Virus record (IMG/VR): IMGVR_UViG_3300032229_000772
Span: 1-25,269 of that record
Length of the DNA: 25,269 bases
Strand: one strand, 5' to 3'
DNA from: a virus
In this document: positions 6,619-25,081 of the stretch, in pieces
Numbering within the stretch: position 1 is the stretch's first letter
How the letters are laid out: every line of letters begins with the position of its first letter
Translations under genes and position numbers: made by a program
The notes under the pieces: model-generated
The model's input: only the letters and a program-made list of their open reading frames with translations
Told to the model about the DNA's origin: nothing
Databases searched by the model: none

Positions 6619-7107
6619 ATGGCTGATTTATTAATGAAAATGCCGGTTCCTTACGAACCAAAACGGCAGAACCGTTTTATCTTAAGGTTTCCATCCTCAC
6701 TTGGTATAAATGAGTGGTTTGTTGAATCGACAGCAAGACCACACATACAAATAGTATCCACTCCGATTCCTTTCTTAAACACTGAAACTTATGTTGCCGG
6801 TAGATTTACATGGCAACCAATTCCAGCAGTTTTCAGAGACCCAATTGGACCTTCAGCGGCACAAGCTCTGATGGAATGGGTTAGACTTCACGCAGAATCT
6901 GTAACTGGTCGTATGGGTTATGCCGCTGGTTACAAAAAAGATGTCGACTTAGAAATGTTGGACCCAACAGGAGTTGTTGTAGAAAAATGGATTCTTTACG
7001 GAACTTTCCTAACAGATGTAAACTTCAATGCTTTAAGTTATGCTCAAGATGGTTTGGCAACAATTTCCACTTCACTTAGAATGGACCGTTGTGTTCTTGT
7101 TTACTAA
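6619..7107 (+). CDS. Tail tube protein (gp19-type)
   Basis: This 162-residue protein forms the hexameric rings of the inner tail tube through which DNA passes. Its length equals that of T4 gp19 (163). Family features are the N-terminal KRQNRFILRFP strand (residues about 14-24), the TPIPFLNTETYVAGRF loop, the WQPIPAVFRDPIGPS segment, the helix ALMEWVRLH, then ESVTGRMGYAAGYKKD and the strand pair DLEMLDPTGVVVEKWILYG. It has no signal peptide or membrane segment, as expected for a cytoplasmic assembly protein. It has its own late-type octamer 33 nt upstream and a terminator-like hairpin downstream (7148-7185), so it can be expressed alone and abundantly, which fits a major virion protein. Confidence 0.93.
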   Translation: MADLLMKMPVPYEPKRQNRFILRFPSSLGINEWFVESTARPHIQIVSTPIPFLNTETYVAGRFTWQPIPAVFRDPIGPSAAQALMEWVRLHAESVTGRMGYAAGYKKDVDLEMLDPTGVVVEKWILYGTFLTDVNFNALSYAQDGLATISTSLRMDRCVLVY

Positions 7108-7187: not shown

Positions 7188-7931
7188 ATGGATACTCAAG
7201 CAAAAGAATACGGTCAATCAAATTTTACATTACCACATGATGTGGTTCCTTTACCTACCCAAGGTGTTTTTTATAAAAATAAAAAAAAATCAATTAAAGT
7301 TGGATATTTGACTGCCAATGATGAAAATATTTTGATGGCAGCTGGAAATGACATGACCCAAACTTTATTAAGGTCAAAAATTTATGAACCAGATATTAGG
7401 ATTGAAGATTTGATGGAAGGGGATGTTGAAGCACTTTTAATATTTTTAAGAAATACCGCTTTCGGACCTGAAATGGAATTAAATTTAACTGACCCTAATA
7501 CTAGAAAACCTTTCAAAACAACAGTAAAATTAGATGAGTTGAATATTACCAAAGGTCAACAACCTTCTGAAGATGGAACATTCATTACAACATTACCCAA
7601 ATCACAAACTACTGTAAAACTTAAACCCATGACCTATGGAGAAATTTTGGAAATACAAAGGATGGCTGAAACATATCCTGAAGGTAGAACGGCTCCTAAA
7701 GTAACATGGAGATTGAATAAACAGATTGTAGAGGTGAATGGAATCACTGACAGAGGGGAAATTGTAAAATTCATTGACCAAATGCCAATAGCAGATTCCA
7801 AATACATTAGAAAATTCTTGGATGATAATGAACCAAAATTGGATTTGAAAAAAACAGTAATCGCCCCATCAGGAGAAAAACTAACAGTTAATGTTGGGTT
7901 TGGGGTGGACTTTTTTCGTCCTTTCTTCTGA
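7188..7931 (+). CDS. T4 gp26-like baseplate / tail-assembly-chaperone-like protein
   Basis: This 247-residue protein starts with NFTLPHDVVPLPTQGVFY (about residues 12-29), then KVGYLTANDENIL. That resembles the LPSxGxxY ... K-Y-x-TAxEExIL opening of gp26-type proteins in T4-like phages. A helical LEDLMEGDVEALLIFLRN-like segment and a beta domain follow. It occupies the slot immediately before the tape measure, where tail assembly chaperones are encoded in most tailed phages. Near the 3' end the codons GAC TTT TTT CGT precede a stop only four codons later. A second frame offset by +1 overlaps here (see 7891-8064), as in two-product chaperone genes. The leader is the hairpin 7148-7185, leaving only 2 nt before the ATG. 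The coding call is firm; the name is inferred from motif and position. Confidence 0.6.
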   Translation: MDTQAKEYGQSNFTLPHDVVPLPTQGVFYKNKKKSIKVGYLTANDENILMAAGNDMTQTLLRSKIYEPDIRIEDLMEGDVEALLIFLRNTAFGPEMELNLTDPNTRKPFKTTVKLDELNITKGQQPSEDGTFITTLPKSQTTVKLKPMTYGEILEIQRMAETYPEGRTAPKVTWRLNKQIVEVNGITDRGEIVKFIDQMPIADSKYIRKFLDDNEPKLDLKKTVIAPSGEKLTVNVGFGVDFFRPFF

Positions 7932-8064
7932 TTATAGAAAAGGACAAATAGATGAATTCTATTTTTTAAAAACTCTTTTGAATGTATCCTATTCAGATTT
8001 TTTGATAATGCCAATTTTTATGAGAAAGTATTTGTTAAATAAATGGATGGAACTAAACAATTAG
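7891..8064 (+). CDS. Overlapping +1-frame extension or separate 57-aa protein downstream of gp26-like gene
   Basis: A frame offset +1 to the gp26-like gene is open from 7885 to the TAG at 8062-8064. Two readings are possible. It could start at the ATG at 7891 (57 residues, with AGGAG 15 nt upstream). Or ribosomes could shift near the TTTTTT at 7911-7916 and add about 50 residues to the gp26-like protein. The sequence after the junction, SSDYRKGQIDEFYFLKTLL and then YSDFLIMPIFMRKYLLNKW, looks like a real protein: helical, with an FxxKxLxxVSYSDFLxMPxxxRKYL pattern like the small chaperone-type or gp51-like proteins of T4-like phages. A terminator begins exactly at its stop, which supports this frame being the true end of the unit. 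A one-base homopolymer sequencing error in the T-run would also explain the split. Confidence 0.6.
   Translation: MLGLGWTFFVLSSDYRKGQIDEFYFLKTLLNVSYSDFLIMPIFMRKYLLNKWMELNN
7908..7931 (+). other. Candidate frameshift site at the end of the gp26-like gene
   Basis: The zero-frame codons GAC TTT TTT CGT CCT TTC TTC TGA contain a six-T slippery run. P-site tRNA-Phe could move +1 from TTT to TTC before a CGT codon (this window prefers AGA for Arg), or -2 within the T-run. Either route enters the frame that ends at 8064. The geometry of a stop codon soon after the slip is typical of programmed sites. No data show that shifting occurs. Confidence 0.4.
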
Positions 8065-8085
8065 GACTGAAAATTCAGTCCTTTT
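8063..8085 (+). terminator. Intrinsic terminator before the tape measure gene
   Basis: The stem AGGACTGA / TCAGTCCT (8063-8070 with 8075-8082) has a 4-nt loop AAAT and a T-run to 8085. It starts within the stop codon of the +1-frame extension and ends just before the next late-type octamer (8087). Confidence 0.8.
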
Positions 8086-8108: not shown

Positions 8109-10028
8109 ATGTTTTTTCAAGCAGGAGTCACAACACCATTAGATGATTTGAGTGGCAGTAAGAATTTAGGTATAGCTTTAGAAGGAGGGCCAGAGAAACT
8201 CAAAGAAGCACAAGACGCTCTACAAACATTTAGTACTGATATATTAAAAACTTTCACACAAGGAAGAGAAAGAATTTTTGAACTTCAAAGATCCTTGGTT
8301 GATGCTTTACCAAACGTAAGAAGATTAGGGGGAAATTTATCAGACGTATCAAAAATAATATCAGGTGTTGCTGAAGCTTCAAGAAGAAATGTTGTTGCCT
8401 CGACTGAACAAATTGAAAAATTATATACGTTAGAAAAACTTGTAGGAAAAACAGGTGGTGAATTAGCAGAAAGTTTTTTGAACGTTGGTATTGGAATAGA
8501 ATCTATACCTAAAGCACTTGGGGAATCAATTCAATATGTACAAAGTATAGGTGGAAATGCCAAAACAGTTTTTGCAGATGTAAGTAAAAATATGGACCAA
8601 ATGAACCGTTTTCAATTCGAAGATGGTGTTTTGGGTTTAACAAAAATGGCTGCTCAAGCTTCGATGATGAGGTTTGACGTAGGACAAACATTAAAATTCG
8701 CGGATGATGTTTTAGACCCTGACAGAGCGATAGAAGTTGCTGGAGCATTTCAAAGGTTAGGAGTTGCGGCTGGGACTTTGGTTGACCCTTTTGCTTTAAT
8801 GAATGCTTCTATCAATGACCCTTCAGGATTACAAGATAGTTTGATAGAGGTTTCAAAACAATTCACGTATTTTGACGACGAAACAAAATCTTTCAAAATC
8901 AACCGACAAGGTGTATTGACACTGAGAGAAATGGAAAAAGCCGCGGGATTGGCACAAGGTTCAATGTCAAAAATGGGTTTAGCCGCCGCTGAATTAGATG
9001 AAAGATTGTCTCAAATAAGTCCTTCAATAAAGTTTGAAAATGAAGAGGACAAACAGTATCTTGCCAACATTGGATCAATGACGAAAGGAGGGCAATATGA
9101 GGTAAAGTTTAGAGATGAAAAGGGAATAGAACAAATGAGAAAGTTGAGTGAAATTACTCAAGATGAATTCGATTTATTAATTGACCAACAAAAAGATAGT
9201 AATAAACCTATTGAAGAAACTGCTCGAGAACAATTGACGTTGTCACAAACCATGAACAACAACCTCGCAGCAATTAAAAGTCTTATGATGGGTGTAACTC
9301 TGACTAGTGACGCGGCAATGGATGTGACAGAGGGTCTCAAGCAAGTCGCGGATGCAACTGCTAGAGGGGCAGAAAAAACAACGGATATTGCAAAACTTAG
9401 AGAGGAGGCCAACAAAAATTCACAAACTTTAAGAGACGATTTGATTAAATCCATTAAAGAAGGAAAGACTAGTGAAGCGGAAATATTTGCAACTCTTGCT
9501 GAAGGAGCGGTTAATATTTTTGGGGCGGTGAGTAAAGAATCGATGCAACAAATTGCAGGAGCATCTCGACAAATATCTGAAGAACTTAATGATGAAAAAA
9601 ACACAGCAACCGCACGAGGTCTTTCCGATGCGGTTTCTCCAATTTTGGAAGCTTTATCAATTGCTGTTACTGGTGGACAAAATTTTATTCCTACGCAAAA
9701 TGGTCCATTTGGTGTAAATCCTGCAACAAATAATACTTTACCAGGACCTATTACTAATGTCACAGTTGGAGGAATTTCACCGAATCCGTCTTTACCAGGC
9801 ATGTCGTCATCACTCCCAAGTAGAGACCCTATAAAGGTAGAATTTGGGCCAGTACCTCCTGTAAACGTAAATATTACCGGTGCATCAAATATGACCCCCC
9901 AACTTGCAGAAGAAATAACGAAAATTTTTGAAAGATTATTAGGTAAACAATATATCAAAAATAATATAGCAGACAATATTACTGAACCCGATCCATTTCG
10001 ACCATCTAGGTCACCTTTAAATGGGTAA
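8109..10028 (+). CDS. Tail tape measure protein candidate
   Basis: This 639-residue protein is largely helical. The N-terminal 330 residues hold long amphipathic helices with heptad-like spacing (ERIFELQRSLVDALPNVRRL and following). A helical segment runs from about 400 to 510, and a Pro/Gly/Asn-rich linker from about 530 to 590 precedes a C-terminal helix. It lies between the chaperone-like gene and the baseplate genes, the canonical tape-measure position (T4 gene 29, 590 residues). At about 0.15 nm per residue of extended helix, 639 residues would span near 96 nm, close to a T4-size tail. I see no strongly hydrophobic membrane segment and no lytic domain. The first five codons (MFFQA, ATGTTTTTTCAAGCA) are identical to those of the sheath gene. 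A promoter-like octamer and a terminator lie directly upstream. Confidence 0.7.
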   Translation: MFFQAGVTTPLDDLSGSKNLGIALEGGPEKLKEAQDALQTFSTDILKTFTQGRERIFELQRSLVDALPNVRRLGGNLSDVSKIISGVAEASRRNVVASTEQIEKLYTLEKLVGKTGGELAESFLNVGIGIESIPKALGESIQYVQSIGGNAKTVFADVSKNMDQMNRFQFEDGVLGLTKMAAQASMMRFDVGQTLKFADDVLDPDRAIEVAGAFQRLGVAAGTLVDPFALMNASINDPSGLQDSLIEVSKQFTYFDDETKSFKINRQGVLTLREMEKAAGLAQGSMSKMGLAAAELDERLSQISPSIKFENEEDKQYLANIGSMTKGGQYEVKFRDEKGIEQMRKLSEITQDEFDLLIDQQKDSNKPIEETAREQLTLSQTMNNNLAAIKSLMMGVTLTSDAAMDVTEGLKQVADATARGAEKTTDIAKLREEANKNSQTLRDDLIKSIKEGKTSEAEIFATLAEGAVNIFGAVSKESMQQIAGASRQISEELNDEKNTATARGLSDAVSPILEALSIAVTGGQNFIPTQNGPFGVNPATNNTLPGPITNVTVGGISPNPSLPGMSSSLPSRDPIKVEFGPVPPVNVNITGASNMTPQLAEEITKIFERLLGKQYIKNNIADNITEPDPFRPSRSPLNG

Positions 10029-24232: not shown

Positions 24233-25081
24233 ATGAGTTCATTAGACGCCGTATTGGCACAGTACGAAAAAAATCAACAAGGGGGCGGGGCCCAATCGAA
24301 AATGTCGCAAGACGAAAGAATGAAAAAGTATTTCGCTTTAATCTTAGGAGATAAAGAGAAATCAGGACAGAGAAGAGTTAGAATTCTCCCTACACCAGAT
24401 GGTTCCTCACCATTCAAAGAGGCGTGGTATCACGAAATTCAAGTAGGTGGACAGTGGCAAAAATTCTACGATCCGGGAAAAAATGACAACGAACGTTCAC
24501 CTTTGAATGAGGTTTACGAAGAATTGATGTCAACAGGTAAAGAGTCTGACAAATTATTGGCGGCTCAGTATCGTTCACGAAAATTCTATATTGTTAAAGT
24601 AATTGACAGAGACCATGAGGAAGATGGTCCAAAGTTTTGGAGATTCAAACACAACTTCAAGAATGATGGCATTCTTGACAAAATCATTCCTATTTGGAGA
24701 AACAAAGGAGACATTACTGACCCTGAAAAAGGACGTGACTTAGTCATTGAACTTTCTAAGGCGAAAACTCCAAAGGGTAAAGAATACACAACAGTATCAA
24801 CTATCATGTATGACGATCCTGCACCAGTACATACTGACAAACAACAGGCAAAAGCTTGGATTGAAGATGAATTGACATGGATGGATGTTTACTCCAAAAA
24901 ACCTGTTGATTACCTTGAAGCAATTGCAAGAGGAGAAACTCCTAAGTGGGACTCAGACAAAGGTGGTTACGTTTATGGTGACAGTTCAGTTGAAACCGAA
25001 TCATTCGGTGGAGGTTCCAAAAAATCCACATACGTCGATCCACAATCTAACGACGAACCTGACGGAGACCTTCCGTTCTAA
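24233..25081 (+). CDS. gp32-like single-stranded DNA-binding protein
   Basis: This 282-residue protein coats ssDNA during phage replication and recombination. An OB-fold region similar to T4 gp32 runs from about residue 25 to 200: RRVRILPTPDG, PFKEAWYHEIQVGGQWQKFYDP, then KFYIVKVIDRDHEEDGPKFWRF and KIIPIW. T4 gp32 binds zinc through His and three Cys in this area; here the matching stretch (ERSPLNEVYEEL) has none, and the whole protein has no cysteine. A Gly/Ser-rich acidic tail ends in DEPDGDLPF, which matches the DDDIPF tip of bacterial SSB proteins more than the gp32 tail. It is followed by uvsX across a hairpin, the usual partnership of gp32 and UvsX. The first codons give MSSLDAVLAQYEKNQQ, with an A-rich leader (CAACAAAAAAAC). 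Confidence 0.85.
   Translation: MSSLDAVLAQYEKNQQGGGAQSKMSQDERMKKYFALILGDKEKSGQRRVRILPTPDGSSPFKEAWYHEIQVGGQWQKFYDPGKNDNERSPLNEVYEELMSTGKESDKLLAAQYRSRKFYIVKVIDRDHEEDGPKFWRFKHNFKNDGILDKIIPIWRNKGDITDPEKGRDLVIELSKAKTPKGKEYTTVSTIMYDDPAPVHTDKQQAKAWIEDELTWMDVYSKKPVDYLEAIARGETPKWDSDKGGYVYGDSSVETESFGGGSKKSTYVDPQSNDEPDGDLPF

Follow-up and report, generated by a model that had tools for sequence, protein, structure and literature searches.

A probable +1 ribosomal frameshift joining a gp26-like tail assembly chaperone to a gp51-like C-terminal tail in T4-like phages

In a virus genome fragment carrying T4-like tail genes, a gp26-like gene ends inside an overlapping frame, offset by +1, that looks like conserved protein, and the question is how this second frame comes to be translated. 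The DNA analyzed is the virus record IMGVR_UViG_3300032229_000772 at its full length of 25,269 nt, referred to here as the window, and all coordinates are window positions unless another genome is named. The original prediction linked the two frames by a programmed frameshift, and offered a separate 57-residue gene or a homopolymer sequencing error as alternatives. Comparison with relatives supports the programmed shift as the best explanation: positions 7188-7931 and 7918-8064 very probably constitute one recoded unit, in which a +1 programmed ribosomal frameshift would give a short and a long tail assembly chaperone.

Organization of the locus

The genes at the locus are all situated on the plus strand. 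A tail tube protein (gp19-like, 6619-7107; phrog_4542, E 3.3e-20) lies upstream of the gp26-like gene, which encodes the short product of 247 aa (7188-7931; PF12322, E 7e-10; phrog_150, E 2.4e-15). The 3' end of the latter reads GAC TTT TTT CGT CCT TTC TTC TGA, with the TGA at 7929-7931. The overlapping +1 open reading frame (7891-8064) is present as described, and so is the T run followed by CGT at the frame crossing, where the proposed shift site TTT TTT CGT occupies 7911-7919 and its T6 run 7911-7916. The +1-frame tail (7918-8064) comprises 48 codons after the shift and then TAG; the 0-frame part and the tail translate to a 291-aa fusion, which ends ...VDFFVLSSDYRK... In the ORF list, the rival reading appears as a 57-aa ORF from ATG 7891 to 8064. 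The stop of the tail (8062-8064) touches the stem of an intrinsic-terminator-like hairpin (8063-8082), as had been pointed out.

The pair was also said to sit directly before the tape measure gene, and a putative tape measure protein of 639 aa is indeed encoded at 8109-10028. This protein is assigned by position and returned no PHROG or confident Pfam match; the equivalent gene carries a tape measure annotation in immuto, LIS04 and SP-15, and the order of tube, short gene, tail and putative tape measure is shared with these three phages. A gp32-like protein starts at 24233 in the window. We also note two ORFs of 53 aa between structural genes, one with a CxxC...CxxC zinc-ribbon-like pattern (961-1122) and one of ribbon-helix-helix-like appearance on the minus strand (2166-2327).

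Conservation of the tail and alternatives to frameshifting

The frame architecture and its conservation emerge from comparison of relatives gathered by protein scans and by two tail-only DNA-pattern scans that were blind to the shift site. The scans yielded 424 gp26-like matches, 277 of them non-redundant and some only ~25% identical. Among the non-redundant loci, the tail lies in the +1 frame in 264 and in another frame in 7, and no tail was detected by the profile in 6. The +1 tail is also found in the samples fetched by tail sequence alone. TTT TTT CGY is kept in all 80 of the nearest viral contigs (83-98% identical), and every one of these that is long enough to show the tail has it in the +1 frame. 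At 26% identity, Microcystis phage Mel-JY01 reads ...FFWPK and a stop in frame 0 and TFFGLSNEYR...MPIMLRRYY in frame +1. The T4-like phages with a +1 tail are a large and mostly uncultured group; a search of bacterial genomes for relatives found none.

The +1-frame residues, which had been noted for their conserved look, are maintained at the protein level. Across 74 aligned relatives, the part of the tail beyond the 0-frame stop has a dN/dS of 0.10 in the +1 frame, as against 2.08 in frame 0 and 0.80 in the remaining frame: selection on the tail is purifying in the +1 frame.

A T run at the crossing is where a homopolymer sequencing error splitting one gene might be expected, but hundreds of assemblies, as well as finished phage genomes, show the identical split, which excludes this explanation; no locus with the two frames fused into one by a run of five Ts was seen among the relatives. 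Slippage of RNA polymerase on the T run, giving mRNAs one U short, would suit the T6-T7 runs present at most sites. However, 22 sites with only three or four Ts keep the same architecture, and six or seven Ts are short, the runs listed for polymerase slippage being Tn with n above 8 (PMC3711429), so that transcript slippage is extremely improbable.

The remaining alternative is independent translation of the tail as a small protein, from an ATG, GTG or TTG of its own within the last part of the gp26-like gene. From the window alone this is possible, since ATG 7891 and two TTG codons are available, and an upstream +1-frame ATG is present in 114 of 260 loci and GTG or TTG only in a further 63. 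Two relatives, L176 and L181, do have a separate ATG tail gene, and Va3 and Moby show a start overlapping the stop. The wider comparison, however, points the other way. In 83 of the 260 loci, the interval from the last +1-frame stop to the site contains no ATG, GTG or TTG, and most of these 83 have their first downstream start 28-36 codons into the tail. In 32 loci a stop codon stands directly before the site, and the tail therefore cannot start there by itself. It is at the Phe pair, and not at any start codon, that the +1 frame becomes conserved. In L058, L257 and L289 stops separate the possible starts from the site, L058 having a +1-frame TAG immediately ahead of the site and lacking a start codon after it. 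Given these three loci the separate 57-residue gene is unlikely, and clearly separate genes, which were also looked for, occur within the group only in the nested pair L176 and L181. The evidence thus favors a ribosomal frameshift at the T run.

The proposed shift site and the direction of the shift

The census scored 260 +1 sites, of which 250 have TTT as the P-site codon, ten CTT and none TTC. This bias was not taken as separate support, since dual coding restricts that base through the +1 frame as well. The codon that follows is TGG at 169 sites, CGT at 47, CGC at 34 and TAY at 7, the A site in relatives being CGY, TGG or TAY. Shifted one base forward, the P site reads TTT or TTC at 259 of 260 sites, and +1 re-pairing (UUU_U, UUU_C or CUU_U) is possible at 259 of 260. 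The motif UUU_CGN, with UUU in frame 0 and CGN next at the crossing, is present in 80 of 80 loci of the window's clade.

The original prediction had left +1 and -2 open. Frameshifting by -2 would reach the same frame, and a review reports it for phage Mu, besides a likely +1 shift in haloarchaeal HSTV-2 (PMC5009743). The run of six or seven Ts would allow UUU to re-pair at -2 at most sites, a Phe codon lying two bases back at 248 of 260. Twelve sites (TTC TTT TGG, TTC TTT CGT, AAC TTT CTA), however, lose Phe pairing at -2 and keep it at +1, and the ten CUU_U sites, which include that of Flavobacterium phage immuto, resemble the RF2 +1 site. The +1 shift is favored because it alone would re-pair at TTC TTT TGG, TTC TTT CGT and TTT CTT TGG, and a -2 shift is very unlikely.

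Two further endings of the short gene were observed. In Pseudomonas phage QdP_Psa3 (L083, 3140-3400), the gene ends GAC TTC TTT CCC TAA with the +1 tail open, the CCC before the stop recalling the +1 sites of Listeria phage PSA. In Rhodothermus phage RM378 (L191, 2640-2900), it ends TCC TTT TTT TGG, and the +1 frame, open for >70 codons, is annotated as a separate hypothetical protein.

Among the 7875 codons of the window, CGT occurs 20 times, CGC 0 times and AGA 202 times; the resulting frequencies of 2.5 and 0 per 1000 for CGT and CGC reflect the phage's own usage. TGG, the commonest A-site codon in the relatives, is not especially rare in the window at 7.1 per 1000. Upstream of the site, 80 of 80 CGY-clade loci (~60-99% identical within the clade) use GGG for the glycine three codons ahead of the first Phe, as against ~10% of Gly codons elsewhere in those genes. 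This suggests a signal at the nucleotide level, perhaps a Shine-Dalgarno-like one. GGG is kept at codon -3 even where a stop closes the +1 frame just after it (L257, L289). The GGGG at 7902-7905 of the window is a possible Shine-Dalgarno-like stimulator. Downstream of the site, no RNA structure was consistently predicted, with fold z-scores around the site of -2.4 to +1.3, and a conserved structure was rejected on the grounds that the small GGAC/GTCC hairpin of the window breaks in relatives.

In the proposed mechanism, most ribosomes would terminate at TGA 7929-7931 and release the 247-aa chaperone. A minority would stall at the rare CGU, with the P site occupied by UUU (7914-7916), whereupon the P-site tRNA may slip by +1 and re-pair on UUC (7915-7917).

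Sites of this kind have counterparts elsewhere. The +1 site of influenza A PA-X, UUU_CGU, is proven (PMC3498833), and that of plant amalgaviruses is proposed to be UUU_CGN (PMC5052127). The window shares with both the P-site/A-site motif and a rare CGN codon. These are eukaryotic RNA viruses, whereas the window comes from a DNA phage presumed to be bacterial, the relatives of which mostly have UUU_UGG. In bacteria, the +1 site of RF2 (prfB) is CUU_UGA. The ten relatives with CUU_U are similar to it, and the window's clade likewise has an upstream G-rich element. In contrast to RF2, where the A site holds a stop codon, the phage sites hold a sense codon, and the G-rich element of the phages is farther upstream. 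Pseudomonas phage Adele and the Andersonviridae have a chaperone frameshift at a GTTTTT motif (PMC12846349); they resemble the window in the position of the chaperone gene before the tape measure and in the T-rich slippery site, but shift by -1.

Relation to gp26 and gp51 and changes of route

The short product matches PF12322, T4_baseplate (gp26/gp51), with 39.4 bits against a curated cut-off of 24.5, and T4 gp26 and T4 gp51 both match the same family. The profile of the tail can be aligned with the C-terminal ends of gp51 proteins and of their separate or -1 counterparts; against the gp51 C-terminus, hhalign gave a probability of 95% and an E of 2.9e-8 for one comparison. The match was obtained only from profile to profile, as the tail found no match in the single T4 gp51 sequence and the single tail sequence reached only E 0.06 with phrog_634. 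Given the homology to the gp51 C-terminus, gp51 would be the counterpart of the long form and gp26 that of the short form. T4 gp28 was also considered as a homologue of the tail, and no match was found.

A search of solved structures by sequence gave no match. The AlphaFold2 model of the short product (pLDDT 87.7) weakly matches the HK97 tail assembly chaperone 2ob9 (E 1.3, TM by target 0.48), which has the highest probability (0.47) among the 50 fold matches listed. The homology, together with the position of the genes, suggests that both products are chaperones.

Frameshifted tail assembly chaperones were reportedly treated by Xu, Hendrix and Duda in 2004. In phage lambda, a single gene immediately ahead of the tape measure gives both gpG, the short form, and gpGT, which is extended at its C-terminus, and the frameshift is described as widely conserved in such chaperones, with T4 excepted (PMC5009743). 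The window likewise would have two forms from one gene before the tape measure; the difference is that lambda shifts by -1, whereas the window's group, of the PF12322 family, would shift by +1 on UUU_CGY, UUU_UGG or CUU_UGG. By analogy with lambda gpG/gpGT, the short and long forms would cover the tape measure protein and bring in subunits of the tube.

T4 gp26 and gp51 are said to be the subject of Vladimirov, Gautam and Davidson 2022 (Virology 566:9). The window resembles the T4 pair in PF12322 membership and in the homology of its tail to the gp51 C-terminus. PMC10885494, which cites Vladimirov et al. 2022, describes some T4-like phages as having a short gene and a longer fusion gene in place of a frameshift. 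The window differs from these in having a single gene with a tail in the +1 frame. No +1 shift in the chaperones of T4-like phages was found in the searchable literature, outside of which Vladimirov et al. 2022 lies, and an earlier description in part is possible.

The route to the tail appears to have changed within the group. L420 and L380 form a well-supported pair inside the +1 group in a protein tree of 105 rows, with -1-frame tails that follow T_TTT_TTC in L420 (~7278) and T_TTT_TTT in L380 (reverse strand, ~6260). The pair represents, on the evidence of the tree and the sites, a natural change of frameshift direction from +1 to canonical -1 sites. In L176 (3226-3549) and L181 (3214-3510), the tail is a separate ATG gene after the stop of the short gene, and the two adjoin CUU_UGG members in the tree. 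The tail is in the -1 frame, with T_TTT_TTC ending the short gene, in cyanophage ACG-2014g, Vibrio phage Va3, Stenotrophomonas phage Moby, Atu_ph07 and PA5oct, long branches of unsure placement in the tree. In ACG-2014g (L195, 2148-2390), the 31 residues of a CDS annotated as gp51 are the end of a -1-frame tail that is longer and joins gp26 at T_TTT_TTC.

The T4-like group probably uses a sense-codon +1 shift (UUU_UGG, UUU_CGY), a bacterial counterpart of the motif in PA-X, with the site later turned into a -1 site or a separate gene and the tail domain kept. The annotation of immuto, Mel-JY01 and SP-15, in which the tail is missing, truncated or a separate hypothetical protein, is corrected accordingly. 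The hundreds of natural sense-codon +1 variants (UUU_CGY, UUU_UGG, UUU_UAY, CUU_UGG) would be useful for the study of +1 slippage in bacteria. In accounts of the widespread chaperone frameshift, T4 figures as the exception. Frameshifting in the rare +1 direction is nevertheless very probable in many T4-like phages. To arrive at the chaperone pair, phages seem able to exchange one route for another, whether a +1 shift, a -1 shift, a separate gene or gene duplication.
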